A stretch of 64,000 nucleotides of DNA from Hyphomicrobiales bacterium (GTDB lineage: Bacteria > Pseudomonadota > Alphaproteobacteria > Rhizobiales > Methyloligellaceae). The stretch lies in contig JAJFHN010000036.1 in NCBI GenBank assembly GCA_021775595.1, positions 1 to 64,000 of the forward strand, written 5' to 3'. Below, piece after piece: positions 741 to 29,681 of this stretch (position 1 is the first letter of the stretch; every line of letters starts with the position of its first letter). A program made the position numbers and the translations under genes. The notes below the pieces were generated by a model that had not been told where the DNA came from, ran no database searches, and worked only from the letters and a program-made list of their open reading frames with translations.

Positions 741-854
741 CATATCCGCTTTCGCTTGAACCGCGCCGACAATCGAGTTTTCGGCGCATTTGGTACCGGG
801 AACAGCCGTCGGCTGCCCGATAGATTTGAGTAATTCGTGTTTTTGGGGGAACCA

Positions 855-2051: not shown

Positions 2052-2067
2052 GTATCGCATCATCTAA

Positions 2068-2095
2068 GCCGCGCTCGGTTTCTACCGGGCGCGGC
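2068..2095 (+). terminator. GC-rich stem-loop after the Met-rich barrel gene
   Basis: GCCGCGC and GCGCGGC pair around an inner CGG/CCG, starting 17 bases after the stop codon. There is no T-run behind it, so it is a weak intrinsic terminator at best or an mRNA 3' stabiliser. Confidence 0.35.
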
Positions 2096-2158
2096 ACAAA
2101 CTATCGACTGTAGTGACAACCGGTCGGGGGCGGCCCAACCCGATAGAAGGACTCGCTG

Positions 2159-3574
2159 ATGCGCGCCTCAATGTCCGACAGCATTACCAGGCGATTGTCG
2201 GCACAATTTATCGCAAAAAATCCGTTCGCCGGGCTGGCCCAGCGAAGCTCTTTGTTGCCGCGCTGGGGATGGATTGCATTGCGGCTGCTCCTGCTTGGTT
2301 TCACGGCGGCGATGATCTGGTTGCTGCTCAGCCAACCAAGCCTTGGCGTGGCGGTATTTTGGCTGATCGCAATTCCTGGGTTGCCGCTGTTGTTTCTCGT
2401 CGCGCCAGGAGTCTGGCGCAATGTCTGCCCGATGGCGACGCTCAATCAGCTTCCAGCCCAGCTGGGCCTGAGCGCCAGACTGAGACTTCCGAATGCGCTC
2501 AAGCGAAACGCTTATCTGGTTGCTGTCGGGCTGTTTATGGCTCTGATCTTTTTGCGCCACCCCTTGCTCAACTACGATCCCGGCGCGCTTCTGCTCTTGC
2601 TGTCGGCGGCGTTGGTATCGGCGTTCTTAGGTGGCGTACTGTTTCAAGGTAAAAGCGGTTGGTGCGGGACGTTTTGTCCGTTGTCGCCCATCGAGCGGGC
2701 CTACGGACAGTCACCGGCTTTCGTGGTCGCCAACAGCCACTGCAGCCTTTGCAACAACTGTCAAAAGAACTGCTACGACATCAATCCCAACGCGGCGATC
2801 TTTAAGGACCTGGAGGACGATAGCGCCTGGTACGTCGAAAATCGCAAACTGTTCTTTGGCGCGCTTCCTGGTCTTATCTATTGGTTTTTTACAACTGCCG
2901 ACCCGGGCCAGATCGGCTATGGCGCGTATCTCGCGGGCTTGGCGCAAAGCGTCTTGGTGACCCTGGGCTTGTTCTATGCAGCCATATACTTGACGCGGTT
3001 GCGGCTGTTTCATGTGGTCCAGCTTTTCACGGTTTCGGCCATCTTGATTTTCTACTGGTTCGCCGCGCCTTCCGTGCAAGCTGGTTTGAGCGAGCTGTTT
3101 GCCGCAAACATCCCGCGTTGGACCGTGCCGGCACTCCAGGTGTTCGTTGTGCTCGCTGTCGCTCTGACATGGATGCGTGGACTCGGGCACGAACTGGCCT
3201 ATCGACAACGCGTGCCCGTGACAGATCAATCAACTGGATCAAGCTTTTCGGTTGTGAGAGGCCAACCTCTTCTAGAGGCCATCGAAAGCGCGGGAATTTC
3301 CATCCGACATATGTGCCGCAGAGGCCAATGTGGCTCCGACCCCATCGTGATCGTTACGGGCGAAGAAAACGTCGACACCGCCACGGGCGACGAACGTCAG
3401 ACGCTGCGTCGCCTGGGACTGGAAGGACAAGTCAGGCTGGCCTGTTCGTGCATCGTCAATGGTCCCATAACAATCGATACGGCAGCGGGGAAATTGGCCA
3501 AAATTGACGCGTTGCGGCAATCTGGATTTGTGTGCCCAAATGCCGTGGAGAACGCAGAACGCAGCAGCGATTGA
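2159..3574 (+). CDS. Membrane 4Fe-4S protein with C-terminal 2Fe-2S ferredoxin-like domain
   Basis: A 471-residue protein; AGAAGG (2145-2150) precedes the ATG. Several hydrophobic helices carry NapH/CcoG-like cysteine motifs: VCPMATLNQLP, WCGTFCPLSP and a 4Fe-4S signature CSLCNNCQKNCYD in the middle. The last ~120 residues form a plant-type ferredoxin domain with CRRGQCGSD and, downstream, LACSCIVNG. In plant-type ferredoxins the first motif is C-x4-C-x2-C; here the third position is Asp. The likely role is moving electrons across the inner membrane, either to or from the periplasmic sulfite dehydrogenase encoded next (149-base gap). Partner and direction are inferred. Confidence 0.7.
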   Translation: MRASMSDSITRRLSAQFIAKNPFAGLAQRSSLLPRWGWIALRLLLLGFTAAMIWLLLSQPSLGVAVFWLIAIPGLPLLFLVAPGVWRNVCPMATLNQLPAQLGLSARLRLPNALKRNAYLVAVGLFMALIFLRHPLLNYDPGALLLLLSAALVSAFLGGVLFQGKSGWCGTFCPLSPIERAYGQSPAFVVANSHCSLCNNCQKNCYDINPNAAIFKDLEDDSAWYVENRKLFFGALPGLIYWFFTTADPGQIGYGAYLAGLAQSVLVTLGLFYAAIYLTRLRLFHVVQLFTVSAILIFYWFAAPSVQAGLSELFAANIPRWTVPALQVFVVLAVALTWMRGLGHELAYRQRVPVTDQSTGSSFSVVRGQPLLEAIESAGISIRHMCRRGQCGSDPIVIVTGEENVDTATGDERQTLRRLGLEGQVRLACSCIVNGPITIDTAAGKLAKIDALRQSGFVCPNAVENAERSSD

Positions 3575-3723
3575 TTGCTCCCATCGGCAAGTTGCAGCCC
3601 CTCACATAAGTTTACCTTGCCGCATGAAGTTCGCGGACGCTAGCATTCGGCCAACGGTCGCCGAGGTCATGGCAGCCAACGGCTTGCAGGCACGTGGCGG
3701 GCAATAAACTCTGGGAGGATCGC

Positions 3724-5028
3724 ATGACAGGGACAAAGTTGCCGAGCGAGCGCGGTTTGTTCGAACTCTACGAACATGATGCAGAAGAAGCCGATGCGCA
3801 GATTTTCGGACGCGCCCCCAATCATGACCGGCGCGGCTTCCTCAAGGGCGCTGGACTGGCGGCCATGAGCGCGGCGCTCGGCGCCACGATCCCCTTCCAC
3901 CGCAACATGCCCGCTGGCTTTGTTCCCGCCGCGTTGGCTGAGGAAAGCGATCCAATACCCGGCAAAGAGGGTCTCACCATTCTCAATGATCGCCCCCTCA
4001 ATGCGGAAACGCCGGCTTACCTACTCAACGATGCTATCACGCCCACCTCGCGCCATTTCGTTCGCAACAATGGCGTGCCGCCCGAGAGTCCCAACGCGCA
4101 GGATTGGGCGCTCACGATCGATGGGCTGGTGGAAAAACCATTGAAGCTTTCGATCACAGATCTGCAAAAGCAATTCGATGTTGTCGATTTGGCGCTTCAA
4201 ATCGAATGCGCCGGCAATGGCCGCGCGGCGTTTGATCCGCCCGCCAGGGGGAACCAATGGACCTATGGTGCGATTGGCTGTGCCAAATGGCGTGGCGTTC
4301 GCCTGGCTGATGTTCTAAAGGCAGCAGGTATCAAGCCAAACGCGATCTATACGGCGAACGAGGGCGCCGACACGCACCTCTCCGGTCAAGCGGACAAGAA
4401 GCCGATTTCGCGCGGCGTGCCCATGGAAAAAGCGCTCGATCCCAGCAACTTGATCGCATTTGCCCAGAACGACGCGGACATCAACCCGATGAACGGCGCA
4501 CCGCTGCGCTTGGTGGTGCCCGGCTGGCCGGGATCGTGCTCGCAAAAATGGCTTACGCGCATTTGGTTGCGCGACGTGGTCCATGACGGCGCCAAAATGA
4601 CCGGCACGTCTTACCGCGTCCCGAGGGATCCCGTGGCGCCCGGCGAAAAAGTGCCGAAGGACGATTTCGTCATCATCCAGTCCATGCCGGTGAAATCATT
4701 GATCACGCTGCCCCGAACGGGACTGAAGACGGCGTCACGGACGCTGGATGTCGGCGGCCACGCCTGGGCTGGCGACCGCAAGGTCAAGGCGATGCATGTC
4801 TCTTCCGACTTCGGGGCAACCTGGATCGAGGCGAAGCTGGATGATCCGGTCAATGCCTTTGCCTGGCAGCAATGGAAGGCGACGGTCGCGTTTCCGAAAC
4901 CCGGTTATTACGAAATCTGGGCACGGGCAACTGACGATAAGGACGTCACCCAACCCTTCGCCATCGCTTGGAACCCAAAAGGCTATCTGAACAATTCCAT
5001 GCACCGCATCGCCGTGACCGTCAGCTGA
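3724..5028 (+). CDS. SorA-like sulfite dehydrogenase, molybdopterin subunit
   Basis: A 434-residue protein. The ATG at 3724 follows GGGAGG (3713-3718); the in-frame start at 3694 does not. A twin-arginine signal, DRRGFLKGAG, lies near residues 35-44, so the folded cofactor-loaded enzyme is exported. The sulfite oxidase-type molybdopterin domain has the Mo-ligand Cys at about residue 162 in IECAGNGR, and WPGSCSQKWLTRI further on. A C-terminal Mo-co dimerisation domain covers the last ~110 residues. A cytochrome c gene starts 4 bases downstream, as in SorAB. It likely oxidises sulfite to sulfate in the periplasm; the exact substrate is unproven because other family members act on different oxyanions or organics. 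Confidence 0.8.
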   Translation: MTGTKLPSERGLFELYEHDAEEADAQIFGRAPNHDRRGFLKGAGLAAMSAALGATIPFHRNMPAGFVPAALAEESDPIPGKEGLTILNDRPLNAETPAYLLNDAITPTSRHFVRNNGVPPESPNAQDWALTIDGLVEKPLKLSITDLQKQFDVVDLALQIECAGNGRAAFDPPARGNQWTYGAIGCAKWRGVRLADVLKAAGIKPNAIYTANEGADTHLSGQADKKPISRGVPMEKALDPSNLIAFAQNDADINPMNGAPLRLVVPGWPGSCSQKWLTRIWLRDVVHDGAKMTGTSYRVPRDPVAPGEKVPKDDFVIIQSMPVKSLITLPRTGLKTASRTLDVGGHAWAGDRKVKAMHVSSDFGATWIEAKLDDPVNAFAWQQWKATVAFPKPGYYEIWARATDDKDVTQPFAIAWNPKGYLNNSMHRIAVTVS

Positions 5029-5032
5029 CGGC

Positions 5033-5356
5033 GTGGCACGGTCACTTTTCGCTCATATCTTTTTCGGGTTTCTGTTGGTCAGTGCGCCCATCGCCTGGGG
5101 CGAGGAGGATACGGATTCGGACCTGCCCCCAGGCGAAGGACGCGAGGAAGTCGAAATCTATTGTTCGGCCTGTCACTCCCTGAAAATCGTTACCCAGCAG
5201 GGGCTGAGCCGCGCAGACTGGGACGAGCTGCTGGTCTGGATGGTGGACGAGCAGGGCATGGATGAATTACCGCCCGATGACCGCAAGTTGGTTTTGGACT
5301 ATCTGGCCAAGCACATCAGCATTGAGCGTGTGCGCGAAATGCGTAAGACGCCATAA
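5033..5356 (+). CDS. SorB-like periplasmic cytochrome c
   Basis: A 107-residue protein with a GTG start four bases after the sorA-like stop, indicating translational coupling. It has an N-terminal signal peptide (residues 1-23), an acidic linker, and one haem c motif CSACH at residues 44-48. The length and position match the small monohaem subunit of SorAB sulfite dehydrogenases, which takes electrons from the Mo centre and passes them to the respiratory chain. A cbb3 oxidase cluster is encoded elsewhere in this window and could be a terminal acceptor, but that link is only inference. Confidence 0.8.
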   Translation: MARSLFAHIFFGFLLVSAPIAWGEEDTDSDLPPGEGREEVEIYCSACHSLKIVTQQGLSRADWDELLVWMVDEQGMDELPPDDRKLVLDYLAKHISIERVREMRKTP

Positions 5357-5367
5357 CGAAAAGCCGT

Positions 5368-7170
5368 TCAAGTGCCACTGACCGCGCGTAAAACCGGCTG
5401 ATTGAGCGCGTGCGCTTCGACCAAACCGCGCACCGAATTACCGAGATAAACGCGGTCGGCTGTCTCGAGATCGGCCAGAGTGAGGACGCCTTCACGCGCC
5501 TCACCTTTGGCGAGCAGCTCCGCGCGCAACGTGCCTGGCAGGAGGCCGCATTCGAGTGCGGGAGTTATCAGTGTACCGCTGCGCTCGAGAAAAATATTGG
5601 TGCGGCTGCCCTCCGCCAACTCACCGCGTTCATTGAGAAACACGACCTCGTCGCAGCCAAGCCGGCCGCTGAGCGCCGCGTGTTCGCCGTCATAGAGCTC
5701 CCGGCGCGTGGTCTTATGATAAAGAAACGTGTCGTCGGATCGCACGGCATGCTCCGACACCACATATGTCATTTGCGCCGCAGACGCCGGATGATCAATT
5801 TCAACGGCGGTCACCGAGCACTCGCCGTTGCTGTCGAGCAACAACCGCACCCGCTGAACCCGCTGCCCGAATGTGCTGGCTTGGCTTTCCAGCGTAGCCA
5901 CCACAGCCTTTTGGTCGATTGGGTAACCGAAATAGCGTGCTGAATCTGTCAGCCGCTCCAGGTGGCGATCGAGCAGGTAGTATCCGTTGTCGGGCTCGAA
6001 ACGCATTGTTTCTATCAGCTGGAAGGTGTGCGCCGGTTCGGAGAGAAAACGCAGTTTCAGCAGGCACTCGTCATATTCGGCTTCGGCGCTTGAATCTTGA
6101 ACAATGCCGCTGCCAATTCCGATTTCCCCTTGGCCATCGCAAATCGTCAATGTGCGGATTGCGACATTGAAGCTGGCGTCGCCGCTGGGCGCGACCATGC
6201 CCACTGCGCCGGTATAGACGCCGCGAGGATCGGTCTCCAATTCATTGATGATCTCGATGGCGCGCATTTTTGGCGCACCGGTGACAGAGCCCGGCGGAAA
6301 AATGTTCGTCACCAATTCCGCCAATCCCACATCGGTGCGCAACCGGGCGCGGACACCTGACGTCATTTGATGGAGTGTGCTGTATGGCTCGACCGTGAAG
6401 AGATCGCTCACCGTGACGCTGCCCGTGTCGGCCACGCGACCGAAATCGTTGCGCATCAGATCCACGATCATCAAATTTTCAGCTCGCGATTTGGCATCTG
6501 TCCGCAGCCATTGCTGCTGAGCCTCGTCAAGTTTTGTGGTTGGGCCGCGCGCGACCGTACCTTTCATCGGACGCGTGCTGATCTCTTGGCCACTGCGCAG
6601 CAAAAACACCTCGGGTGAAATGGAAAGAACCGAGAATTCTTGGGTTTCGATCAAGGCGCCATAGGCGACGGGCTGCTTTTCACGAAGTTCAGCGAACAGC
6701 GACCGTGCATCGCCGGCGAAATTGAAGTGCGCCTTGAAAGTGAGATTGAGCTGGTAGATATCGCCGCTGGCGATATAGCTCTTCACTTTCTCGAAGCGCT
6801 CGCGATAAGCGTCGAGGTCCATGCTGAACTGCAATTCCGACAACTGGCATGGCGGCGCATCCGATCGGCGCAAGTGGTCCCCGACATTACGGCCTGATAG
6901 CGTCCGGGGCGCATCGAATACGCCAAACCAGAGAAGCGGTACGCGGCGCTCCGTGGGCATCAACGGCGCCAGCCTGGCCTCGAACGCATAGCCCAATTCA
7001 AATGCAAAGAAGCCAGCTAGATATGCGCCCTTTTCAAGCGCCGCCTGCATGGCCGCCAGCGCCGATGGCACCTGATCGGCTTCGCTCGCGCTGATAACGC
7101 CGGATGGCTCTTCGAACAACAAGGCGCTGCCGCCAACGGTATTGTCATCGATTAAAACGGACGTGGTCAC
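5368..7170 (-). CDS. pabB: Aminodeoxychorismate synthase component I fused to aminodeoxychorismate lyase (PabB-PabC)
   Basis: A 600-residue bifunctional protein. The chorismate-binding domain (about residues 120-375) shows GDIYQLNLTF, RPMKGTVARG, a PPGSVTGAPKMRAIEII segment and the closing IGSGIVQDSSAEAEY block. The C-terminal third is a PLP fold-type IV (PabC-like) domain with FLNERGELAEGSRTNIFLE and CGLLPGTLR. It converts chorismate and ammonia to aminodeoxychorismate, then to 4-aminobenzoate for folate. The glutaminase PabA is not encoded nearby. The GTG start overlaps the stop of the upstream phosphatase gene by 4 bases, so the two are co-transcribed despite unrelated jobs. Confidence 0.9.
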   Translation of the reverse strand: MTTSVLIDDNTVGGSALLFEEPSGVISASEADQVPSALAAMQAALEKGAYLAGFFAFELGYAFEARLAPLMPTERRVPLLWFGVFDAPRTLSGRNVGDHLRRSDAPPCQLSELQFSMDLDAYRERFEKVKSYIASGDIYQLNLTFKAHFNFAGDARSLFAELREKQPVAYGALIETQEFSVLSISPEVFLLRSGQEISTRPMKGTVARGPTTKLDEAQQQWLRTDAKSRAENLMIVDLMRNDFGRVADTGSVTVSDLFTVEPYSTLHQMTSGVRARLRTDVGLAELVTNIFPPGSVTGAPKMRAIEIINELETDPRGVYTGAVGMVAPSGDASFNVAIRTLTICDGQGEIGIGSGIVQDSSAEAEYDECLLKLRFLSEPAHTFQLIETMRFEPDNGYYLLDRHLERLTDSARYFGYPIDQKAVVATLESQASTFGQRVQRVRLLLDSNGECSVTAVEIDHPASAAQMTYVVSEHAVRSDDTFLYHKTTRRELYDGEHAALSGRLGCDEVVFLNERGELAEGSRTNIFLERSGTLITPALECGLLPGTLRAELLAKGEAREGVLTLADLETADRVYLGNSVRGLVEAHALNQPVLRAVSGT

Positions 7171-8018
7171 GGATCCGGCCGATCACTGGGGGATGTCTTG
7201 TTGCTTTTCTGTGGCGCCTCGTTGCCGGCTCCTGCCAGCCCGCGCACCGCGAGCGCGCCGCTTGTGGCCATCGCGGCCAAGCGCGTGTGAACGGGTCCGT
7301 CATCATTCAGCGTGGCCGAGGCAAACTCAAAAATCAGCCAATGAACCAATTCGGCGATCAGTGCCATCAATACGCCCGCAAATATAACGTCGCTCAAAAA
7401 ATGCCCGCCCTGGGCTATACGCACAAAGCCCGCGAGTGTTCCAGCCAGTATGCCCAGTCCGATCAGCCGCGCGCGTCTCCGGCGCGCCAGCAGCGCCAAG
7501 GCGAAAAACACCATATAGATCGAAGACGCCTCACCACTGACGAATGAGCAATTATCTTCACACTGGTCGGAGCGTGCCAGCGCCGGAGTAAAGCGCTGTT
7601 CGCCACCGTATTCTTGGACATGGAAGGGCCTTGCACGTCCCCAGTTGTCTTTGAGAATCACATTTGCGGTCAGACCGGGGCCAAGGGCCAAACAGGCGAC
7701 GAGATAGAACCACTTCTGAAAGCCCATCGTTAGGAAGGTGCGCCTGGTCAGGGCAGAATACAGCAGGCCCACGATTACCAGCGCGCTGGCTGCATAGAAG
7801 ACGATTTTAAAGAAAACGCGCAGATCCTTGCCGACGCCAGGAAAATTGAAAATAAACGCGCGGTTGCCGCCATAGAACAAATTCGTCACGGCGAAATCGA
7901 TTTGCGGAAAACCGACAAAAATGAACGCTGCCGTCAGGCCCACAAATGAAGTCCAGGCAAAAATCCTCCATCGTCCGGCGCCTTGCACCGCTTGGTCTTG
8001 GGCTACGTTCTGTGTCAT
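7167..8018 (-). CDS. PAP2-family membrane phosphatase, lipid A phosphatase candidate
   Basis: A 283-residue protein with about six hydrophobic helices. The PAP2 signature is present in three parts: KDNWGRARP (K-x6-RP), CSFVSGEAS, and RIAQGGHFLSDV carrying the catalytic His and its Asp. The middle motif reads SGEA where the classical family has SGHA. The gene starts 1 base downstream of the GT39 gene's stop and overlaps pabB by 4 bases. In this setting, with an ArnT-like transferase upstream and an LpxQ-like barrel nearby, the substrate is likely lipid A or an undecaprenyl-type phosphate (LpxE/LpxF/LpxT-like); which position is removed cannot be told. Confidence 0.75.
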   Translation of the reverse strand: MTQNVAQDQAVQGAGRWRIFAWTSFVGLTAAFIFVGFPQIDFAVTNLFYGGNRAFIFNFPGVGKDLRVFFKIVFYAASALVIVGLLYSALTRRTFLTMGFQKWFYLVACLALGPGLTANVILKDNWGRARPFHVQEYGGEQRFTPALARSDQCEDNCSFVSGEASSIYMVFFALALLARRRRARLIGLGILAGTLAGFVRIAQGGHFLSDVIFAGVLMALIAELVHWLIFEFASATLNDDGPVHTRLAAMATSGALAVRGLAGAGNEAPQKSNKTSPSDRPDP

Positions 8019-8019
8019 T

Positions 8020-9498
8020 TCATTTGCCCTTGTATCCGCTCAATGCGGTCAAATAGACCGTGCGAACCGATTTTGGTCCAGCCGCCACCTTTTGGCTCGT
8101 TAATGGCTCGGCGCGGGCGAAGTGATCGCTGACGTGGCGCACATTAGGGCGAAGCGAGACGAGCAATACGGGATCCTGCGCGTTCCCATCGAACGGTCGG
8201 GAAAACTCGAAGTGATCGCGCGGCACATCCCCCGGGCGCCAAGATCGGACGGGCACGCTTTCGTCCCGCAAATAATAAAGCATCTCCGCCGTTACCAAGC
8301 GGTCTTCGGTCAAAATCGTACCGTAAGAACGCCCATCCAGCGCGCCGCGAACCGACTGAGCCGTTTCCCGCCAGCCCAACACGCGCGCAAAGGGATCGAT
8401 GCGCCCGGGGAAGTATAGACCGGGCGCAAGAATTGCTCCCACAGTGATCGCCAATAACACGATTGCGTGGAGACCAAGCGAAGCGGCGAACAGGCGTTTA
8501 AAGTCATTTTTGAGCAGCGTAGCGGTGACCAGAATTGCCGCTGCCGGATAGGCGGTCGCCGCCCAATTTGCATGCGCCCGCGACAGCAGTGCCTGAACCG
8601 TAACGAGCGCAATGATGGGAAGCGAAAACGACAGAAGCGTGCGGGCCATCTCGTTCGTACCCTTGCGCGCGGCGCCGTAAGCAACACCGATCAGCACGGC
8701 CATCAGAATCGGTCCGAAAACACCGAATTGAGAACCGGCAAATTCCAGCATCTTCAAGGGCTTAATGAGATTTCCGCGCCAGTTAGCGTTGTCGGCCGTG
8801 TGGCTGACTGTGATCCAGCCATTGTCGATATTCCACAATATGTTCGGCAGGACGATCAGCGCTGCGAGCGCCAGAATCGTCAAGCCCTTGACGTCGCGCA
8901 ACATCCAACGTGGCCTTTCCGAAACCACCATATGGACACCGGCACATAGGACGAAATAGACCATGGCGTATTTCGCCATCATGCCGAGCCCCAGTGCCGT
9001 GCCCAGGACCAGGGCCCACGACCATGACGGGCCCTTCTGTAAATTGATCCAGGCCAAGAGCGCCAGCGTCCAAAAAAACAGCAGCGGCACGTCGGTCGAG
9101 ATCAGGCCGGCGGAAAATGAAATACCCGGCAGCGTGGCGAAGACAATTGCCGACCAGAAGCCGATACGTTCGTCGTAAAGCGCTCTGCCCGTTAGATAAA
9201 TCAAACCAGCCGCAAGCGCATAAAGAACGGGCGAGGCGGCTCTGATGCAGAATTCGCTGTCTCCGCACATTGTACCGAAGCCGGCGATGAGCCAGGCAAT
9301 CAATGGGGGTTTGGAGAAATAGCCGAAATCGAGAGCCTGCGACCAAGACCAGTACTGCGCTTCATCAAAAAACAGATCCGTCCCGGCATTGGCCAACCCA
9401 AAGAGCCGCAGCAGCAGCAATAAGCCCAGGCAGATCAGGGCAGCTAAGGCATATCGGTTTGTGGAGGGCACGAGGCTGCTGAATTCCGATCGTGTCAT
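8020..9498 (-). CDS. GT39/ArnT-like polyprenyl-phosphate-dependent glycosyltransferase
   Basis: A 492-residue integral membrane protein with about 11-12 hydrophobic helices. The first periplasmic loop carries the conserved acidic pair in FFDEAQYW (Asp45-Glu46), followed by FSKPPLIAW, as in GT39/GT83 enzymes. These use a lipid-linked sugar phosphate as donor on the periplasmic face, for example ArnT (aminoarabinose) or the rhizobial RgtA-D galacturonosyl transferases. The divergent gene 183 bases away is a GT2 enzyme that could make the donor, and the downstream PAP2 enzyme could free the acceptor position. The sugar is unknown; galacturonic acid is my guess from the rhizobial precedent. Confidence 0.8.
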   Translation of the reverse strand: MTRSEFSSLVPSTNRYALAALICLGLLLLLRLFGLANAGTDLFFDEAQYWSWSQALDFGYFSKPPLIAWLIAGFGTMCGDSEFCIRAASPVLYALAAGLIYLTGRALYDERIGFWSAIVFATLPGISFSAGLISTDVPLLFFWTLALLAWINLQKGPSWSWALVLGTALGLGMMAKYAMVYFVLCAGVHMVVSERPRWMLRDVKGLTILALAALIVLPNILWNIDNGWITVSHTADNANWRGNLIKPLKMLEFAGSQFGVFGPILMAVLIGVAYGAARKGTNEMARTLLSFSLPIIALVTVQALLSRAHANWAATAYPAAAILVTATLLKNDFKRLFAASLGLHAIVLLAITVGAILAPGLYFPGRIDPFARVLGWRETAQSVRGALDGRSYGTILTEDRLVTAEMLYYLRDESVPVRSWRPGDVPRDHFEFSRPFDGNAQDPVLLVSLRPNVRHVSDHFARAEPLTSQKVAAGPKSVRTVYLTALSGYKGK

Positions 9499-9680
9499 AG
9501 GGGGGATCTCATCGCGCGCCAGGCGCCGCGGCTACGGTCATTTGTGCCATCCGCAGACGGTCTTTCAAACCGGTCGATGGGCCCCGGCGGGTCCGCGTTG
9601 GTGATTTACATGGTTGTGCGCTGCAACGGAAGCTTGTTATTGGTTCGCGCCCCGCACCCGTCGGGACTGCAGCTGGAAAA

Positions 9681-10424
9681 ATGAGTGCAATGCGTATCAG
9701 TGTCGTTATCCCCGCCTACAACGAACAGGGCAATATCGGCCGGCTTGTCGAAGAAACCTTCGGCGCTGTGTCCGACGACGTACTGGGCGAGGTGATCGTC
9801 GTTGACGATTGCAGCGATGACGGGACGGGCGATGAGGTTAAGGCGCTGCTGGCGCGCCATCCCCAGCTGCGTTACATGCGCCACGCCGACCGTGCCGGCC
9901 AAAGTACGGCGCTCCGCACGGGCGTTATCGTTGCCGATCATGACGTCATCGCAACAATGGATGGCGACGGACAAAACGACCCGGCGGATATCGAAAAATT
10001 GTTTGCTCGGCTCGCCGAGCCGGGCGCCGTGGGACCGGCACTGGTGGGGGGCATTCGCACCCAGCGAAAAGCCAGCGGATCGCGACGCTGGGCCTCGCTG
10101 TCGGCCAACTGGATCCGAGATCGCGCGCTCAAAGACAATTGTCCCGACACCGGTTGTGGCATCAAAGTTTATTGGCGCGATGCATTTATGCGGTTGCCGT
10201 TTTTCACCAGCATGCACCGCTATATGCCAGCGCTTTTTCTGACTTATGGCTATAAGGTTGACTACCTGCCAGTAAACGACCGCCCCCGCGTGGCCGGCGT
10301 TTCGAAATACTCAAATCTTGGCCGCGCACTGGTAGGCATATACGATCTGATTGGTGTCACCTGGTTGCGCAAGCGAACCAGTGCACCCGCGATCTCCGAG
10401 GATTCCTCGGGCGGCGCTGCATGA
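9681..10424 (+). CDS. GT2 polyprenyl-phosphate glycosyltransferase (DPM1/ArnC/RgtE-like)
   Basis: A 247-residue protein without clear membrane helices. The N-terminal GT-A domain has ISVVIPAYNEQGNI, VDDCSDDGTGDE and a metal-site region TMDGDGQNDP (about residue 93-102). Later CPDTGCGIKVYWRDAF matches dolichol-phosphate mannose synthase relatives. It should transfer a nucleotide sugar to a polyprenyl phosphate on the cytoplasmic face, making donor for the divergent GT39 enzyme. ArnC and GtrB have two C-terminal membrane helices, absent here. The next genes (LAB_N protein, PAP2 phosphatase, LpxQ-like barrel) follow on the same strand within 70 bases of each other. Confidence 0.8.
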   Translation: MSAMRISVVIPAYNEQGNIGRLVEETFGAVSDDVLGEVIVVDDCSDDGTGDEVKALLARHPQLRYMRHADRAGQSTALRTGVIVADHDVIATMDGDGQNDPADIEKLFARLAEPGAVGPALVGGIRTQRKASGSRRWASLSANWIRDRALKDNCPDTGCGIKVYWRDAFMRLPFFTSMHRYMPALFLTYGYKVDYLPVNDRPRVAGVSKYSNLGRALVGIYDLIGVTWLRKRTSAPAISEDSSGGAA

Positions 10425-10463
10425 TGCCGGATCAGGAATTGGGACCAAAGGTGGATTGATGAA

Positions 10464-10793
10464 ATGTCTGGATTAGCCACGTGGTGGGCAAGCGTAACGA
10501 CAACTGAGCTGATATGGCTCAGCGTTGGCTTCCTGGCCCAGTTCATGTTCTCGATGCGCTTTCTGCTGCAATGGATCTACAGCGAGCGGGCCCAAGCGAG
10601 CGTTGTCCCCGAAGTGTTTTGGTATTTCAGTTTTCTGGGTGGCGCGATGTTGCTCGTTTATGCAATCCACCGCGTCGATCCGGTCTTTATCCTTGGCCAA
10701 GCGATGGGCCTCGTCATTTACAGCCGCAACATCTATTTCATCTGGCGATCGAAACGTCAGGGCGAACAGTCCGCTCCAGGCGCGGCCGAATAG
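10464..10793 (+). CDS. Stand-alone LAB_N (lipid-A-disaccharide synthase N-terminal domain) membrane protein
   Basis: A 109-residue protein with three hydrophobic helices. It contains FSMRFLLQWIYSE, VPEVFWYFSFLGG and LGQAMGLVIYSRNIYFIW, the conserved core of the LAB_N family, which is found fused to LpxB in some bacteria or as a short free protein. A good Shine-Dalgarno (AAGGTGGA) precedes the ATG. Free LAB_N genes commonly sit next to GT2 polyprenyl-phosphate transferases, as here (39-base gap), and may help move or present the lipid-linked sugar across the membrane. That function is inferred; no catalytic residues are evident. Confidence 0.8.
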   Translation: MSGLATWWASVTTTELIWLSVGFLAQFMFSMRFLLQWIYSERAQASVVPEVFWYFSFLGGAMLLVYAIHRVDPVFILGQAMGLVIYSRNIYFIWRSKRQGEQSAPGAAE

Positions 10794-10858
10794 CAGGCGC
10801 ATCCGCGCAGCGGAGCTGTTCTGCGCCAGCCACACAGCATGACACTCGGCGAGGGACC

Positions 10859-11620
10859 ATGGCATCGGTGAAATCAGTCTTTGCGCCCGCTGGCAGGATG
10901 AGCCCGTTGGAATGGCTAGCGATCTTGGGATCGATTTTGCTTGCCTCATTCCTGTTGGTCGATCCCCTGGTTTATTCGCTCGTGAGCGAATTCGATCCCC
11001 AACTCAAGGGGGTATTTCAGCGCTTGACCCATTTGGGGCGCTCGAGCTGGATCCTGTTTCCGACGGGGGCGGCGATTATTGTGCTCCTTGGCCTGCGTAC
11101 CCGCGATATCGGAGCCAGAAGCACCGTGGCCTACGCCTATGTTGCGCAGCTCTGTGCGTTCGTTTTCGCCAGTGTGGCCGGTGCGGGCATCATCACATCT
11201 CTCGGCAAGAACATCATCGGCCGCGCACGGCCAAAGCTGTACGACGCGGTCGGTTCGGTTGAATTCGAACCGTTCACGTTTCACGCCGACTTCGCATCAT
11301 TTCCTTCGGGTCATGCGACGACGATATTTGCGCTGGCCGCGGCGCTGGCGATTCTATTTCCCAAGGCGCGCATCTATCTCTTCGTCGCGGCCGCTTGGAT
11401 CGCTGCGACACGATTTCTGATCGGAACGCACTACTTCAGCGATGTGGTGGCGGGCGCCATTGTCGGAACGGCATTTACACAATTTTTGATGCAACGCATG
11501 GCAGCTCGGCGCTCGCTGTTCCAAACAGCGCAAGACGGCACCGTTCAGCAGCGCGGGCGATCCTTGATGCCATGGATGGTATCGCAACTGCGACTGGCGA
11601 TCTCGTCGCGTGGACGCTGA
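10859..11620 (+). CDS. PAP2-family membrane phosphatase
   Basis: A 253-residue protein; I use the ATG at 10859 with GAGGG just upstream, not the long upstream extension, which runs through the LAB_N gene in another frame. About six helices carry a textbook PAP2 signature: KNIIGRARPK (K-x6-RP), FPSGHATT, and TRFLIGTHYFSDV. Targets of such enzymes are lipid A phosphates (LpxE, LpxF), phosphatidylglycerol phosphate or undecaprenyl pyrophosphate. This is the second PAP2 gene within 4 kb, both beside lipid-linked glycosyltransferases, which suggests that one removes a lipid A phosphate and the other may act on a different position or recycle the carrier. Confidence 0.8.
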   Translation: MASVKSVFAPAGRMSPLEWLAILGSILLASFLLVDPLVYSLVSEFDPQLKGVFQRLTHLGRSSWILFPTGAAIIVLLGLRTRDIGARSTVAYAYVAQLCAFVFASVAGAGIITSLGKNIIGRARPKLYDAVGSVEFEPFTFHADFASFPSGHATTIFALAAALAILFPKARIYLFVAAAWIAATRFLIGTHYFSDVVAGAIVGTAFTQFLMQRMAARRSLFQTAQDGTVQQRGRSLMPWMVSQLRLAISSRGR

Positions 11621-11653
11621 GCGGCAACACGATTCAACGGGGACTGGGCAGCA

Positions 11654-12769
11654 ATGATATTTTCACTTGAGTTCGGCGCGCGGGTCATTCGCAAGCCGAT
11701 TGCGCGCGCCTTGGGAGGAGATGTTGGAGCGTCACGCCGCCGCGCGTTGGTGTTTACCGCCATCGCACTTGCGGGCTTGGCCTTCGTATGGACCGCGATT
11801 GCGTGGCCCGCAGCACAAAGCGTGCTCGCAGACGCACATCAATCTTTCGAACTGACCCACGCCTTGACGGCGGCGTTTGTTCTGTTTGCGCTCGGCAGTT
11901 GCGGCGTCTTGCTGACTGGCGCCGGACTCGAACTTGTCCTCAGCGCCGAAGCGCTTCACAAGGCAGCGCTTGGTCTGGCCGTGCTCGCGCCCTTGAATTT
12001 TGCCGCCAAGCCAGAATCCAACAAAGCCACCGCGACGACAGAACCTTCAGCGGCCATTTCAGCCGCTCAGCCCGAAATTCAGCTCGGTATTTATGGCGGC
12101 GGCAATTACACGCCCGATGCCGATGTCTTCCTCAAGCAACCCAATGGCACCGACATGGTTCTCAAGAACGTGCCTTGGACGGGCGAGCCATTTGACGATC
12201 CGCCCTATTACGGATTGCGCGGCACCTATTGGACCTCTGCAGCACCCAAATTCGGCGCCATGTTCGATTTCACCCACGCAAAAGCCATTTCGCGACGCAA
12301 GCAGGAAGTCGAGCAATCAGGCACCCGTGACGGCAAGGCCGTGCCGCCCAGAGAACAGGTCGACGCGACGTTTACAAAGCTCGAGTATTCACACGGGCTC
12401 AATTTCCTGACCCTCAACGCGGTCTATCGCATGAGCGGTTGGCATAAGCGCTTTGTGCCCTATGTGGGTGCTGGCGCAGGGCTCGTGATTCCGCATACCG
12501 AAATCGCGCGCAAGGATATCGGCCGGCAGAATTGGACCTACCGATACGAGATAACAGGACCGGGCTTCCAGGCTCTGGCCGGCATCGAGTGGCGGATTTT
12601 CCCGTCCGACAAGTACAGCGTTTTCACCGAATACAAGGCGGGCTACGCGATCAACAGCACCGAATTGCTCGAGGGCGGGACAGTCACAAATCAGCTTTGG
12701 GCGCATCAGGCCATTTTCGGCCTCTCGGCAATCGTCTACCGGCCGGCATTGGCGAGCGCGACCCGCTAG
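11654..12769 (+). CDS. LpxQ-like outer-membrane beta-barrel protein with hydrophobic N-terminal region
   Basis: A 371-residue protein. The C-terminal ~230 residues look like a small beta-barrel: IQLGIYGGGNYTPDADVFL (about 142-160), VPWTGEPFDDPPYYGLR (173-189), then strands up to the end. This matches proteins annotated as lipid A oxidase (LpxQ, which makes 2-aminogluconate in Rhizobium lipid A). The first 115 residues are unusual, with two to three hydrophobic helices (31-52, 66-92, 104-116) before the barrel. An in-frame TTG at 11909 would give only the last helix as a signal peptide and a more ordinary barrel protein. The gene sits 33 bases after a PAP2 phosphatase in a lipid A-type cluster. 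The enzyme assignment is moderate. Confidence 0.6.
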   Translation: MIFSLEFGARVIRKPIARALGGDVGASRRRALVFTAIALAGLAFVWTAIAWPAAQSVLADAHQSFELTHALTAAFVLFALGSCGVLLTGAGLELVLSAEALHKAALGLAVLAPLNFAAKPESNKATATTEPSAAISAAQPEIQLGIYGGGNYTPDADVFLKQPNGTDMVLKNVPWTGEPFDDPPYYGLRGTYWTSAAPKFGAMFDFTHAKAISRRKQEVEQSGTRDGKAVPPREQVDATFTKLEYSHGLNFLTLNAVYRMSGWHKRFVPYVGAGAGLVIPHTEIARKDIGRQNWTYRYEITGPGFQALAGIEWRIFPSDKYSVFTEYKAGYAINSTELLEGGTVTNQLWAHQAIFGLSAIVYRPALASATR

Positions 12770-12799
12770 CGCTCTGGGGCTCGTGACGCTGGCCGAAGG

Positions 12800-13396
12800 C
12801 TAGCGTCCAAACAGCGCGCGCGCGTTTTCACCCAGCAACAACAGCAACCGATCTGCGAAAAGTCCAACGAGCAGCGCGACGCTCAAATAACCGTAAGGAT
12901 TGATGCGAATGAGGTTTGCGTCGGGTTGGAACAAGGCTCGCAGCAGCAGATAGACCCCGATGCCGAGCGCGGCGGCCATGAACGGTCGCAACAGCGTCCA
13001 ACTGATCGAGAGCCCAGCCTCTGTCCGGCCCGCGACCGCTAACCCAAGCGACAACAGCGAGCGCAGCAGCGCGCCGATCGCGGCCATGATGCCGGCCATG
13101 GCAAACAGGCCCTGGTCAGCGGAAAGAAACGTGTGGGTGCCGCCAAGATTGACGCGCGTGACGGGCAGGTCGCCAAATTTGCAGTTCACCTTGCCCGCGC
13201 GCTTCACCGTTTCGAGATATTCGGCGCGGTCGGCTTCAGGGATCGTCAATGACCGCTTGCAGAGTTCGGAGTGAACGCCGATCGAAGGCCATATATCGAT
13301 CATCGTATCGATCAAAACGCCTGTGAGGGCCACCATCAGCAATCCGGTTAGTGCGAGCGCGCCCTTGCGCACGGGCGATGTTGTTTGCTTGGCCAT
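12800..13396 (-). CDS. Hypothetical inner-membrane protein
   Basis: A 198-residue protein I do not recognise. It has an N-terminal helix (about 12-30), a periplasm-like segment of ~65 residues with two Cys (SELCKRS and KVNCKFG, possibly a disulfide), then three helices (about 98-125, 130-155, 165-190). It lies 73 bases downstream of the second GT39 gene, on the same strand and convergent to the LpxQ-like gene. Position suggests envelope biogenesis, but no family is evident. Confidence 0.6.
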   Translation of the reverse strand: MAKQTTSPVRKGALALTGLLMVALTGVLIDTMIDIWPSIGVHSELCKRSLTIPEADRAEYLETVKRAGKVNCKFGDLPVTRVNLGGTHTFLSADQGLFAMAGIMAAIGALLRSLLSLGLAVAGRTEAGLSISWTLLRPFMAAALGIGVYLLLRALFQPDANLIRINPYGYLSVALLVGLFADRLLLLLGENARALFGR

Positions 13397-13469
13397 TACT
13401 TGGTCCCCTCGTTGGTGATCGTCATTGCCCAGCGCTTAGCCAGTCTGTCTGGCCAAGTCTAGGATTTGT

Positions 13470-15383
13470 TCAATCCTGTGTTTCACATCGCGCGAATTCA
13501 GGCAACCGGCAGGCCGCAAGTTCATTTTCGTTCGCAACCACATAGAGCGATATGTTGGTCCAAAAAAACCGCCCGACATTGAAGCCCCGGGTGCATGCGA
13601 TGCGCAGCGGAGCCTTCAGACCGATGCGTTTGACGTGATCGTGAAAATTCGCATCGGCGTGGTCGGTTACAAATGCGATGCGCCCCTTGCCCTCATCCAG
13701 CCAGTTGGCAGCCGATTGGCCCGCGGCCGGGCCCTTTGTGACATAGGTCGTAGAGCCGATGTCGAACACCGCGCTCGGTTCGCCGTAATCGGCGACCAGC
13801 ACGCGGCCGGGCACACAAGGTTCGATCGCACGCGAGATTTCCGCCATGCGCGCACTGGTCCAAATGCCTTTGAAATTCGGCACAACAATCTGAAGCGTGG
13901 TGACATAAAACAGAAGGCTCGCCGCGACTGATAGGCCCAGCCATGCGTAGATTCGCCCTTTCAATAGCCCCAGATGCGCCATGACAACACCGGCCGCGGC
14001 GACAAGCGCCAGGATCAGCGGTAGCAACGTGAAGGGGCGCACCGACCATAAAACAAAGCCCGCAAGACCCAGTGCAGGCAACAGAGCGTGAAGAAGCGCA
14101 CCAAGCCAATAGGCTTTCAAGCGCCGCGTTTTTGGAAGCACGGACGGTGCAAAATTGGTCAGTGCCGAGGCGATTGCCACCATGACGGCCGGCAGCACAA
14201 CTTGCAGAGAATAAAGCGGCGGCTTGTCGGAAAGCACCTCCAGCACAATCAAGTAGGGCACAATCCAAGCCAGCAGAAAACGATGCGCGCGTTCTTCGCG
14301 GGAGGCCCAGCTGCGTCCAGCGGCAAAAAGAAACAACACCGAGCCGGGCAGCAAGCAGAGCCAAAGGCCCGCGAAATACATGCCGGGAAATCCGCTCCAG
14401 TTCATCCTTTGCGGGCCTGCGAGCTTGTCGAAAAATCCGTCTGTCCAAGCCCCCCGCACGAGATCGGGATCGGCGTTGAGCGCGAGCGCCACCATCCACG
14501 GCGCCGCGATCAGGCACGCCAACGGCAAGCCCCAAAGGATGTGCAGGCGCCGCAGCCAGCCGGCATCGCGGTCGGCGGCGACCAAAGCGACAATCGTGCA
14601 GAACGACAGCAGCGGCAGCGCCAACACGCCGGTCAAGATGCTACCGCCTTGCGCCGCCCAAAATGTTAGTGCGTGGCGCCAGCGCCGGTCGTCGCGCCGG
14701 CCAATGTAGAGATGAGCGAGGCTCCATTGGCCCAGTGCGACAAAAACCAAATGCAGCCCCTTGGACAGCGCCAGATGGGCTTGCAAAACGATGACGATAT
14801 TGACGCCAAGCAAAACCGCGCCGATCAGGGCCGTCTCACGCCCAAACAGGCGATAGGCGCCAAGATAGGTGATGAAAACCGCGAGCAAAGCGCCAAGCAA
14901 TGAAGGCACCCTGTATGCCCATATGGGGTTTTGCACCCCATCGCCGATTAGGCTGGCGCTGGCGGCTTGCAGCCAAAAAACGCCAATCGGCTTGGTGGGC
15001 TCGCGCTCTTCCAAAAAGCGTGGATTGACGTAATCGCCCGTCTCGAGCATTTGCTTGGAGATCTGGGCATACCGCACTTCGGTCCGGTCGATCGGCGGCA
15101 GATCGAAAAAGCCAGAGAGGAAGGCCGGCAGCACGATTGCAAGCAGCAGCAACGCGCCGCGCAATGGGTTTTGCGCAGCCAGGCTCACGCCGTGGCGGCA
15201 ATACGTATCGATCCGATCGAGCGCATCGGCCAGGTGTTTAAACCATCGGGCCGATCGCTGGGGGCTGTTCGTCAGCTCCGCCTCCAATGACAGCTGTGAC
15301 CCCCCTGAGGGCGCCTGAAAATCAGTAATGGATTGGGACGGCAGACCATCCACGTCAACCGCCAATTTGGCAAAGACACGCAT
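13470..15383 (-). CDS. Second GT39/ArnT-like glycosyltransferase
   Basis: A 637-residue membrane protein with about 12 helices. The first loop after helix 1 has DLPPIDRTEVRYAQ (acidic residues at 99 and 102) and REPTKPIGVFWLQ, features of ArnT-like GT39 enzymes that use polyprenyl-linked sugars in the periplasm. Before the first helix there is an unusual ~75-residue hydrophilic N-terminal part; I kept the ATG at 15383 because no better in-frame start is visible. It differs clearly from the GT39 protein at 8020-9498, so the two probably add sugars to different acceptors or positions on the same glycolipid. Confidence 0.75.
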   Translation of the reverse strand: MRVFAKLAVDVDGLPSQSITDFQAPSGGSQLSLEAELTNSPQRSARWFKHLADALDRIDTYCRHGVSLAAQNPLRGALLLLAIVLPAFLSGFFDLPPIDRTEVRYAQISKQMLETGDYVNPRFLEEREPTKPIGVFWLQAASASLIGDGVQNPIWAYRVPSLLGALLAVFITYLGAYRLFGRETALIGAVLLGVNIVIVLQAHLALSKGLHLVFVALGQWSLAHLYIGRRDDRRWRHALTFWAAQGGSILTGVLALPLLSFCTIVALVAADRDAGWLRRLHILWGLPLACLIAAPWMVALALNADPDLVRGAWTDGFFDKLAGPQRMNWSGFPGMYFAGLWLCLLPGSVLFLFAAGRSWASREERAHRFLLAWIVPYLIVLEVLSDKPPLYSLQVVLPAVMVAIASALTNFAPSVLPKTRRLKAYWLGALLHALLPALGLAGFVLWSVRPFTLLPLILALVAAAGVVMAHLGLLKGRIYAWLGLSVAASLLFYVTTLQIVVPNFKGIWTSARMAEISRAIEPCVPGRVLVADYGEPSAVFDIGSTTYVTKGPAAGQSAANWLDEGKGRIAFVTDHADANFHDHVKRIGLKAPLRIACTRGFNVGRFFWTNISLYVVANENELAACRLPEFARCETQD

Positions 15384-27904: not shown

Positions 27905-27913
27905 GGACTCCCC

Positions 27914-28642
27914 ATGTCATTCAGCCACGCAACGATTGAGAAGAACTCGATTTTCCTATTGGTCGGAATTCTGATCGTAATAGCCATTGGCGGCATCATC
28001 GAACTGGTGCCGCTGTTCTTGATGAAGAGCACTATCGAAAAGGTGCAGGGCGTGCGCCCATACACGCCGCTGGAGCTCGCCGGGCGCAACATCTATGTCC
28101 GTGAGGGTTGCTATGTGTGCCACAGCCAGATGATCCGCGCCCTGCGCGCGGAGGTGGAGCGCTATGGCCATTATTCGCTCGCGGCAGAGAGCATGTACGA
28201 CCATCCATTCCAATGGGGATCGAAACGCACCGGCCCCGATCTTGCCCGCTTGGGCAACAAATACTCAGATGAATGGCACAGCGACCATCTCAAGAATCCG
28301 CGCTCGGTTGTGCCAGGTTCGATCATGCCGTCTTACTCTTGGCTTGCGACAACGGATCTATCCTATGCCACCATCGCAGACGACCTCAGAGTGAACCGGA
28401 TGATTGGCGTTCCCTATACCGACGAGATGATCGAGAACGCCAAGCAGGACTTGGAAGCGCAGGCGAACCCTGATTCCGACGGCGTCAGCGACTTCGAACA
28501 GCGCTATCAAAAAGCCGCCTCCCGTGTTTTCGACGGCGACGCCAACCGCATTACCGAAATGGACGCTCTCATCGCCTACATGCAGATGCTGGGAACGTTG
28601 ATCGACTTCAATCTCTACGACGAAAACGCAAATAAGCGCTGA
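27914..28642 (+). CDS. ccoO: cbb3-type cytochrome c oxidase subunit II (monohaem cytochrome c)
   Basis: A 242-residue protein with one N-terminal membrane anchor (about 14-40) and a periplasmic haem c domain. The motif CYVCHSQM gives the haem attachment, and the later GSIMPSYSW Met is the probable axial ligand. It accepts electrons from CcoP and passes them to CcoN. It starts 9 bases after ccoN, so the genes are transcribed together. Confidence 0.95.
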
Positions 28643-28653
28643 GAGGTGGACCT

Positions 28654-29674: not shown

Positions 29675-29681
29675 CGGTCCA

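Follow-up and report, generated by a model that had tools for sequence, protein, structure and literature searches.

A candidate island for phosphate-free lipid A with LpxE-, LpxF-, LpxQ- and Rgt-type genes in a bacterium of the order of Hyphomicrobium

Does a single locus in a bacterium from the order of Hyphomicrobium encode the enzymes for stripping lipid A of its phosphates and modifying the vacated positions, and where does such a locus end? The window (the whole stretch of 64,000 nucleotides that was analysed) holds genes for which a sequence-only reading had proposed an LpxE/LpxF/Rgt/LpxQ-type module ending at 12769. The six genes that it named, in a divergent arrangement, are all present and match Pfam families, except for the barrel gene F, whose OMP_b-brl score is sub-threshold (20.6 bits, cut-off 28.7). 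The end was set too early, since two more genes, G and the RgtF relative H, directly follow. The lipid A remodelling island thus occupies window 7167-15383 (8.2 kb) and comprises genes A to H, given here with the neighbouring pabB-pabC fusion:

pabB-pabC fusion, 5368..7170, minus strand: Chorismate_bind and Aminotran_4 (Pfam); a recurrent neighbour
gene A, 7167..8018, minus strand: LpxF-like lipid A 4'-phosphatase (PAP2), 283 aa
gene B, 8020..9498, minus strand: RgtD-like sugar transferase of the GT-C class (GT39 type), probably acting at the 4'-position, 492 aa
gene C, 9681..10424, plus strand: RgtE-like GT2 of the polyprenyl-phosphate-hexuronate synthase type, lacking C-terminal membrane helices, 247 aa
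gene D, 10464..10793, plus strand: LAB_N small membrane protein, candidate flippase for polyprenyl-P-sugar or partner of C in the membrane, 109 aa
gene E, 10859..11620, plus strand: LpxE-like PAP2 of the lipid A 1-phosphatase type, with the canonical PSGH motif, 253 aa
gene F, 11654..12769, plus strand: LpxQ-like barrel of the outer membrane and candidate C-1 oxidase of lipid A, extended at the N terminus by hydrophobic segments, 371 aa
gene G, 12800..13396, minus strand: conserved membrane protein, function unassigned, 198 aa
gene H, 13470..15383, minus strand: RgtF-like alpha-(1,1)-GalA transferase (ArnT-type GT-C), 637 aa

Genes B and A are 1 nt apart, the gaps C-D, D-E and E-F measure 39, 65 and 33 nt, and the divergent starts of B and C are separated by 182 nt. 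For gene E the ATG at 10859 is the more likely start; its mechanical ORF begins at 10514 and overlaps the LAB_N gene. At E <= 0.001 the 2.9-Mb genome contains three PAP2 matches, two of them inside the island, and one match each to LAB_N, F and H. With so few matches genome-wide, and these concentrated in the island, chance clustering is unlikely.

We consider it likely, from homology, gene order, family-specific motifs and probable GalA-supply genes, that the island encodes a pair of lipid A phosphatases, an oxidase for C-1 and a glycosylation system of three components (C and D together with B or H), and that its product is phosphate-free lipid A bearing galacturonic acid (GalA) and/or 2-aminogluconate. 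The catalytic steps predicted on this basis would take place at the periplasmic face and the outer membrane. C would link a hexuronic acid, most likely GalA from UDP-GalA, to polyprenyl phosphate, and D would work with the helix-less C and presumably bring the sugar, on its lipid carrier, across to the periplasm. A would remove the 4'-phosphate and B add a sugar at 4'; E would remove the 1-phosphate, leaving C-1 open either to capping by H (RgtF type) or to oxidation to 2-aminogluconate by F (LpxQ type), so that F and H should compete for this position. Any phenotype, including the polymyxin resistance or altered immune recognition proposed in the sequence-only reading, would likewise be a prediction. 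Genes were assigned by gene order and published lengths, by the best-matching paralogue within the genome (with the full set of paralogues compared for PAP2 only), by a motif of LpxF type and by lpxQ primers. The published lengths were found in relatives' proteins as possible starts, and identities to these reference-length proteins are low (27-41%), except for C against genome G139 (65%) and for LAB_N (51%). None of the genes reached the cut-off of an NCBIfam model.

Gene A (Pfam PAP2, 70 bits) scores 134.6 bits (E 5e-39) against the NCBIfam LpxF model, whose strict cut-off is 400; the 257-aa protein of LpxF length in the Rhizobium-type genome G023 reaches 80 bits and matches gene A, neither gene E nor the third PAP2 of the genome. 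Both carry SGE in place of PSGH (FVSGE in gene A, FISGE in the G023 protein), as do 8/8 close A homologues among the matches listed, whereas PSGH is present in gene E and the third PAP2. An A homologue adjoins a B homologue in L107, L115, L120, L225, L226 and L227.

Gene E (Pfam PAP2, 87 bits) contains the tripartite LpxE motif described in PMC6581854, KX6RP-PSGH-SRX5HX3D, with TR for SR in the third element, a substitution also seen in the M. loti-length LpxE of the Mesorhizobium loti-like genome G136. Among the three PAP2 proteins of the genome it is the best match of this 271-aa protein and of the 223-aa protein of G139 that has the length of Rvan_2973, and it is the best own match of the PAP2 near an LpxQ homologue in Sinorhizobium sp. 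B11. The G023 counterpart has possible lengths of 250, 264 and 232 aa, the published LpxE length of 244 not being among them.

Gene F is 31% identical (E 7e-28) to a 224-aa G023 protein that sits between both published lpxQ primer sites (two mismatches each; the best of 30 shuffles per primer at this locus has six), and an F homologue in G385, a second Rhizobium-type genome, is likewise flanked, with three and two mismatches. At 371 aa against about 224, gene F departs from LpxQ in length, and in place of a short signal-like N terminus it has hydrophobic segments at 30-54 and 67-96, ahead of the barrel; longer N termini also occur in many Hyphomicrobiales homologues. The barrel is predicted to be 8-stranded and OmpA/NspA-like (residues 141-362; block pLDDT 88-98 to residue 360).

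An unlikely alternative is that F is a structural or binding barrel and E mainly recycles undecaprenyl pyrophosphate, with only the 4' side acting on lipid A. LpxE enzymes are reported also to dephosphorylate C55-PP (PMC6581854), and the best NCBIfam models of gene E are C55-PP phosphatases, but these same models are also hit by the G023 PAP2 and by LpxE of the M. loti type. The nearest solved folds of F are OmpA, OmpW and NspA; the lipid A enzyme PagL is also among its fold matches (Z 11.5), though barrels resemble one another. Against a purely structural role, R189, D205, H208, K210, E283, Y298, Q306, E326 and other residues do not vary among 16 homologues, one of which is the primer-flanked protein. 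Homologues of A, B, C, D, E and H are absent from 70 of the 75 named F-homologue loci in the flanks examined, some of them short, and in many Hyphomicrobium and Filomicrobium loci F homologues adjoin alpha-2-macroglobulin and PBP1C genes instead; an E-type gene, however, adjoins an LpxQ-like gene in five named assemblies and in G044, in several lineages. Gene neighbourhood thereby ties LpxE to LpxQ in bacteria other than the model rhizobia.

Gene B (Pfam PMT_2/PMT, GT39-like, 93 bits) is 32% identical (E 2e-65) to the 473-aa G023 protein, 473 being the published RgtD length, and this protein matches neither H nor another GT39 of the genome, on contig C68. Gene H scores 68.7 bits against the ArnT model (cut-off 567) and is 33% identical (E 3e-70) to the 537-aa G139 protein with the length of Rvan_0660 (RgtF) and 27% (E 6e-46) to the 547-aa G136 protein of M. 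loti RgtF length; neither of these matches B or the C68 protein. Rgt-type enzymes include transferases of the LPS core (RgtABC), and on this ground the island might modify the core or another glycolipid rather than lipid A. We hold this to be very improbable: the three RgtABC-like G023 proteins match the C68 protein best, not B or H, and the donor genes are flanked by LpxF/LpxE-type PAP2 genes, neither of which core galacturonylation would need.

Gene C (Pfam Glycos_transf_2, 95 bits) was the sole own GT2 in the comparison with RgtE-length proteins. Its identity is 65% with a G139 protein of 263 aa (the length of Rvan_2632, RgtE), 41% with a G136 protein of 244 aa (as long as M. loti RgtE) and 30% with the RgtE-length G023 protein of 338 aa. 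In G136 the lengths 244, 547/549 and 271 (RgtE, RgtF and LpxE of M. loti) stand in the published order.

Does the system supply GalA? A gene of the UDP-Glc/GDP-Man-dehydrogenase family and an epimerase-like gene adjoin on contig C30 and are candidates for UDP-GalA supply; in PDB, the epimerase has as its nearest relative an entry titled dTDP-glucose 4,6-dehydratase. The phosphatases could instead act on lipid A while B transfers another sugar, for example mannose, perhaps made by C. G139 appears to be Rhodomicrobium vannielii, whose lipid A is described in PMC7795004 as phosphate-free, with GalA at C-1 and mannose, not GalA, at C-4', and the sugar of gene B is for this reason less certain than that of gene H; moreover, the donor and acceptor of a GT-C enzyme are not readable from 27-35% identity. 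We nevertheless give a non-GalA sugar a small probability, about that of the structural-barrel alternative. The C homologue that is 65% identical to the island's is that of G139, where LAB_N adjoins it too; B has its closest counterpart in the RgtD-length G023 protein; and epimerase-like genes lie beside GT2-LAB_N pairs in two Paracoccus, a Cetobacterium and a Paenibacillus record. In G139 the sole B homologue is weak (31%) and gene A has no match, so its C-4' mannose is probably added by another enzyme. A lipid A lacking phosphate and bearing uronic acid can be predicted with good reason.

The part of the sequence-only reading that concerned module type is backed gene by gene by these comparisons, and the relative of RgtF had been overlooked. 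Gene D (Pfam LAB_N, 111 bits) is probably a SemiSWEET/PQ-loop-like membrane protein and not a lipid A biosynthesis enzyme. In a profile search of PDB its top six matches, all weak (E 0.036-0.61), are SemiSWEETs or "chemical transport proteins" of the same size. A single-sequence model (pLDDT 71) has three long helices; in Foldseek it had no match below E 0.6, and SemiSWEET is absent from its 18 matches. GT2 adjoins LAB_N in 26/26 relatives' loci with both flanks readable (L102 and L103, where the contig ends first, are left out of this count), and the polyprenyl-phosphate-sugar synthases partnered by LAB_N have no membrane helices in 33/33 measured. The RgtE-length protein of G023, by comparison, is long and has two C-terminal hydrophobic segments.

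We propose, tentatively and with confidence a little short of even, that LAB_N proteins are a widespread, unrecognised class of polyprenyl-phosphate-hexuronate flippases or membrane partners with a SemiSWEET fold. They would stand in for the C-terminal helices of the long RgtE-type synthases, be replaceable by a VTT-domain (DedA-kind) protein, and be analogous in role to eukaryotic MPDU1; in the island, one such donor pair would supply transferases at both ends of lipid A. PMC3281891 describes mammalian MPDU1 as necessary for every known class of dolichol-P-monosaccharide-dependent transfer; the protein has seven helices against the three predicted for gene D, the probable likeness being a three-helix PQ-loop-like unit. 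The flippase reading gains probability from G039, a single case without LAB_N, in which a VTT-domain protein occupies the LAB_N slot 8 nt after a C-like GT2. DedA proteins are reported to be C55-P flippases (PMC12893004) and are not homologous to LAB_N. LAB_N occurs even in a Gram-positive, and if the proposal is true the Pfam name 'Lipid A Biosynthesis N-terminal' is misleading. Three-component periplasmic glycosylation systems (GtrA/GtrB/Gtr and variants with SMR or MATE flippases) likewise encode a synthase, a small membrane protein and a GT-C together, but the middle component here is LAB_N, probably SemiSWEET-like, and not GtrA, SMR or MATE; 'PQ-loop' does not occur in the available text of PMC11127046 on such systems.

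All the LpxE, LpxF, LpxQ, RgtD and RgtE types of the Rhizobium leguminosarum/etli pathway are found in the island, whose predicted product, as there, carries a sugar at 4' and has its proximal glucosamine oxidised. The genes of R. leguminosarum 3841 lie at separate places (lpxE RL4708, lpxF RL1570, rgtD RL0684 and rgtE RL1470; PMC7663294 Table 4), whereas here such genes form a single island with a short RgtE beside LAB_N and an added RgtF relative. The rgtE-rgtF-lpxE cluster of M. loti shares the donor, C-1 transferase and 1-phosphatase types, and the G136 locus has LAB_N between GT2 and GT-C; in the island F and G separate E from H, which is encoded on the opposite strand. LpxF and RgtD are given as not detected in M. 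loti in Table 2 of PMC7795004. New are the presence of the enzyme set in one locus, the apparent joint encoding of LpxQ and RgtF as expected competitors for C-1, and LAB_N as a candidate SemiSWEET-like partner of helix-less polyprenyl-phosphate-sugar synthases. A full route to phosphate-free lipid A, scattered in model rhizobia, could be dissected here as a unit, making it testable which protein carries polyprenyl-P-GalA over the inner membrane and how an oxidase and a capping transferase divide C-1 between them.

Two neighbours call for brief mention. Gene G has no match in Pfam or NCBIfam; it contains four hydrophobic segments, and a homologue (40-44% identical) adjoins F in 3/75 loci. The pabB-pabC fusion, which overlaps gene A by 4 nt, is not thought to act in the module; it adjoins B, A or E homologues in several relatives.

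The sequence-only reading had placed a lipid A remodelling module, with LpxE, LpxF, LpxQ and Rgt types of protein, at 7167-12769. All six genes were found (ORFs and Pfam) as two divergent units whose starts are 182 nt apart, and the module is borne out and moreover extended: F is immediately followed by two minus-strand genes, G (198 aa, without a family) and then H (637 aa, ArnT-like), so that the island is taken as 7167-15383. Its genes, and the letters used for them, are:

7167-8018, minus strand: A, LpxF-like PAP2 phosphatase
8020-9498, minus strand: B, RgtD-like GT39-type GT-C glycosyltransferase
9681-10424, plus strand: C, RgtE-like GT2 glycosyltransferase
10464-10793, plus strand: D, LAB_N protein
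10859-11620, plus strand: E, LpxE-like PAP2 phosphatase
11654-12769, plus strand: F, LpxQ-like barrel
12800-13396, minus strand: G, membrane protein
13470-15383, minus strand: H, RgtF-like ArnT-type GT-C glycosyltransferase

In the minus-strand unit B is followed by A after 1 nt, and A shares 4 nt with a pabB-pabC fusion; the plus-strand genes C, D, E and F are separated by 39, 65 and 33 nt, the start of E most likely being 10859. The genome to which the window belongs (2.9 Mb in 103 contigs, 97.8% complete) contains three PAP2 matches at E ≤ 0.001, and one each for LAB_N, F and H. G has four hydrophobic segments and is kept beside F in some relatives.

The identities of A, B, C, E and H rest on published protein lengths and on back-comparison. 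The lengths given (PMC7795004 Table 2 and excerpts of PMC5644692) are LpxE 244, LpxF 257, RgtD 473 and RgtE 338 aa for R. leguminosarum 3841; RgtE 244, RgtF 547 (549 in another paper) and LpxE 271 aa for M. loti; and RgtF 537, RgtE 263 and LpxE 223 and 234 aa for R. vannielii. In the Rhizobium-type genome G023 the best match of B can be 473 aa and that of A 257 aa, while the match of C sits inside an RgtABC-like cluster with a possible length of 338 aa; the M. loti-like G136 has the gene order GT2 (244), LAB_N, GT-C (547/549), PAP2 (271), and G139 allows lengths of 537, 263 and 223 aa. These values are each one of a few possible starts per gene, and 257, 338, 547 and 271 require a non-ATG start. 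The E match of G023 can be 250, 264 or 232 aa, none of which is the published 244, and the search did not support G139 as a carrier of a B-like 4' enzyme. When the relatives' proteins were compared back to a panel of A-H, the third PAP2 protein of the genome (on contig C47) and another GT39 protein (C68), RgtD matched B, RgtF H, LpxF A, LpxE E, RgtE C and LAB_N D, all as expected, and three RgtABC-like proteins matched C68; the panel held all three PAP2 proteins of the genome, but C was its sole GT2. A and the LpxF-length protein of G023 share SGE in place of PSGH, and E has the canonical motif. This exchange of the motif-2 histidine for glutamate is found in 8/8 of the close A homologues listed.

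No island gene reached the cut-off of an NCBIfam equivalog. Against PDB sequences B found nothing, A found only a phospholipid phosphatase (E 0.18), and E found 18 PAP2-type chains, mainly acid phosphatases, with LpxE (6ebu) at E 0.085. The alternative raised with the first reading, that B and C come from an exopolysaccharide system, is rejected because their best matches are RgtD- and RgtE-length proteins.

No family match gave F a usable name, and it was connected to LpxQ through published primers. An excerpt of PMC3123555 gives lpxQ primers for R. leguminosarum bv. trifolii and a product of 850 bp. At up to 3 mismatches the first primer matched 5 of 397 genomes of the order. Two of the five, G023 and G385, also have a site for the second primer, which faces the first with 2 mismatches, and between the two lies an F homologue 31-32% identical to F; the primers would amplify about 1,056 bp from G023 and 923 bp from G385, versus the 850 bp reported. 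In G107, G166 and G365 the second primer has at least 9 mismatches and no F homologue occurs in the 3 kb examined, and these matches are probably due to chance. Thirty shuffles of each primer at the G023 locus gave at best 6 mismatches. As the primers flank an F homologue and the 224-aa protein between them in G023 matches F (E 7e-28), we call F, by sequence comparison, an LpxQ homologue, by name in the literature and not via a guess from its fold. The F profile found nothing among PDB sequences. A model of F built from 33 sequences has an eight-stranded barrel at 141-362, confident in the barrel and poor N-terminal of it, and among solved structures its fold is nearest to OmpA, OmpW and NspA; PagL is also matched, at Z 11.5 (3.1 Å over 134 residues). 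Residues R189, D205, H208, K210, E283, Y298, Q306 and E326 are among those invariant in 16 homologues, including that of G023, and H208, K210 and E326 are also invariant in another set of 33.

The function of D is suggested by the company it keeps. A GT2 gene adjoins LAB_N in 26/26 readable loci, and hydrophobic segments above threshold (Kyte-Doolittle, 19 residues, 1.6) are absent from all of these GT2s; the RgtE-length protein of G023 (338 aa, the only long RgtE measured) has two, and no LAB_N was found in that genome by protein and Pfam searches. LAB_N also occurs in 19 plasmid records, nine of which were inspected. The GT2 lies in the gene run of LAB_N in seven annotated records (Azospirillum, two Paracoccus, Pelagovum, Thalassospira, Ilyobacter and Cetobacterium) and beside it in an unannotated Paenibacillus record (tblastn). 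Seven further plasmid GT2s were below the threshold (Paenibacillus 1.41), so that 33/33 LAB_N-associated GT2s measured are helix-less. Paenibacillus is Gram-positive and without lipid A, yet it has the set of GT2, LAB_N and an epimerase-like gene. A Hymenobacter plasmid (L329:2608-3276) is an exception to the pairing, having two tandem LAB_N genes, perhaps a heterodimer, and no GT2 within 3 kb.

That such a GT2 is always paired with LAB_N is ruled out by G039, which has a C-like GT2 (66%; hydrophobicity maximum 1.27, and so helix-less) beside B and no LAB_N by protein and Pfam searches. There the protein that stands 8 nt behind the GT2, in the slot of LAB_N (L228:7726-9221), has a VTT domain (70 bits against a cut-off of 33.9); no VTT-domain gene was found beside the other loci compared. 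The VTT domain is carried by DedA proteins. Proteins of the DedA family are reported as C55-P flippases in an excerpt of PMC12893004. In G039 the VTT gene may thus replace a flippase to which it is not homologous. Residues W18, Q26, R32, P49, W53, Q79 and N89 of D are conserved, being invariant in the alignment examined. The LAB_N profile gave weak matches in the PDB, the six best being SemiSWEET-type, and a fold search with a single-sequence model of D returned nothing informative. From the GT2 pairing, the helix-less GT2s, the VTT replacement and the weak SemiSWEET matches, we propose D as the membrane partner of C or as its flippase. Searches of open-licence PMC papers found no description of LAB_N as a flippase.

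Two other arrangements occur among 149 further genomes sampled from the order. In type I, H-, E-, C- and D-like genes are grouped: of the 31 genomes having both D and a strong E match, 28 have them less than 6 kb apart, as do 35/46 for D and H and 27/30 for E and H. In type II, B is divergent from C-D; A adjoins B in three of the nine strong-B loci (L107, L115, L120), and pabB comes next in a number of loci. The window's arrangement is that of type II with E and H added. In relatives, F mostly lies away from the other island genes. In 75 loci with an F homologue, whose sources include the named strains Filomicrobium insigne and Hyphomicrobium facile, E adjoins F in five (L250-L254, with F duplicated in tandem) and G in three (L249, L250, L252); A, B, C, D and H were absent from the available flanks, some of which are short. 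E and F are neighbours in G044 as well. The F homologue of Sinorhizobium sp. B11 has a PAP2 gene three genes away, with genes for a response regulator and a histidine kinase in between. Among all loci examined only the window has the complete set at a single locus. L250-L254 (e.g. L250:9818-12127), from five Hyphomicrobiales-type assemblies, have the tandem LpxQ-like genes behind the LpxE-like gene, with pabB near in four of the five and A-D absent. Of the 67 loci with an F ORF, about 40 (L277:1070-8507, L294:5351-9844 and similar), many from Hyphomicrobium or Filomicrobium, have the F homologue behind a bacterial alpha-2-macroglobulin gene, a PBP1C-type gene and one further conserved gene, and a DUF4175 gene is on its other side.

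Genome-wide, mutual exclusion of LpxQ and RgtF is not supported, H being present in 4/14 other F-bearing genomes versus 55/149 overall (Fisher p 0.57). Neither is co-occurrence of F and E (5/14, p 1.0), though they are neighbours in some loci; in these genome counts, E matches had to reach 2.3e-20, anything weaker being treated as generic PAP2, which kept 50 of 82 matched genomes, the window's excluded. F is commoner in type II genomes (7/11 versus 7/138 others, p 3e-6), a group defined after seeing the data, uncorrected for relatedness, and including G039, which lacks LAB_N, and G062 and G016, judged from contig-end pieces.

In the proposed pathway C and D would make and present polyprenyl-P-GalA, A and then B would act at C-4', and E would ready C-1 for either GalA addition by H or oxidation by F. 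F and H would be expected to compete for C-1; their presence together is not unique, since H occurs in four of the 14 other F-bearing genomes. UDP-GalA is likely supplied by the genome itself, in which an epimerase-family gene (C30:26982-27941) lies beside a UDP-Glc/GDP-Man-dehydrogenase-family gene (C30:28367-28633) on the same strand. No NCBIfam cut-off was reached. The best PDB relatives of the epimerase-family protein are 5u4q, titled dTDP-glucose 4,6-dehydratase, and the epimerase 6zl6, which we take to be UDP-glucuronate 4-epimerase. Epimerase-like genes 39-50% identical to that of the window's genome accompany GT2-LAB_N in both Paracoccus records, Cetobacterium and Paenibacillus. Several LpxE enzymes have been shown to act on undecaprenyl pyrophosphate (excerpt of PMC6581854), and by analogy E may do so additionally. 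In the open-licence PMC papers searched, neither an island of this kind nor lipid A oxidation in Hyphomicrobiales was found. The island varies a known lipid A pathway in a new way, the LAB_N proposal being the most novel element.

Two-component systems adjoin LAB_N systems (Paracoccus TOH, Ilyobacter, Thalassospira, Cetobacterium) and the LpxQ-like/PAP2 pair of Sinorhizobium B11 (L021:5935-9525, L327, L328, L330, L331), which suggests regulated envelope remodelling; none was seen among the genes adjoining the window's island. Judged by eye from nothing but the ORF list, the region upstream of the island (837-5356) encodes a ferredoxin-type membrane protein, a sulfite-oxidase-like molybdoprotein and a small cytochrome, and downstream of it (26264-33831) there is a cluster for a cbb3-type oxidase that includes ccoG- and copper-ATPase-like genes.
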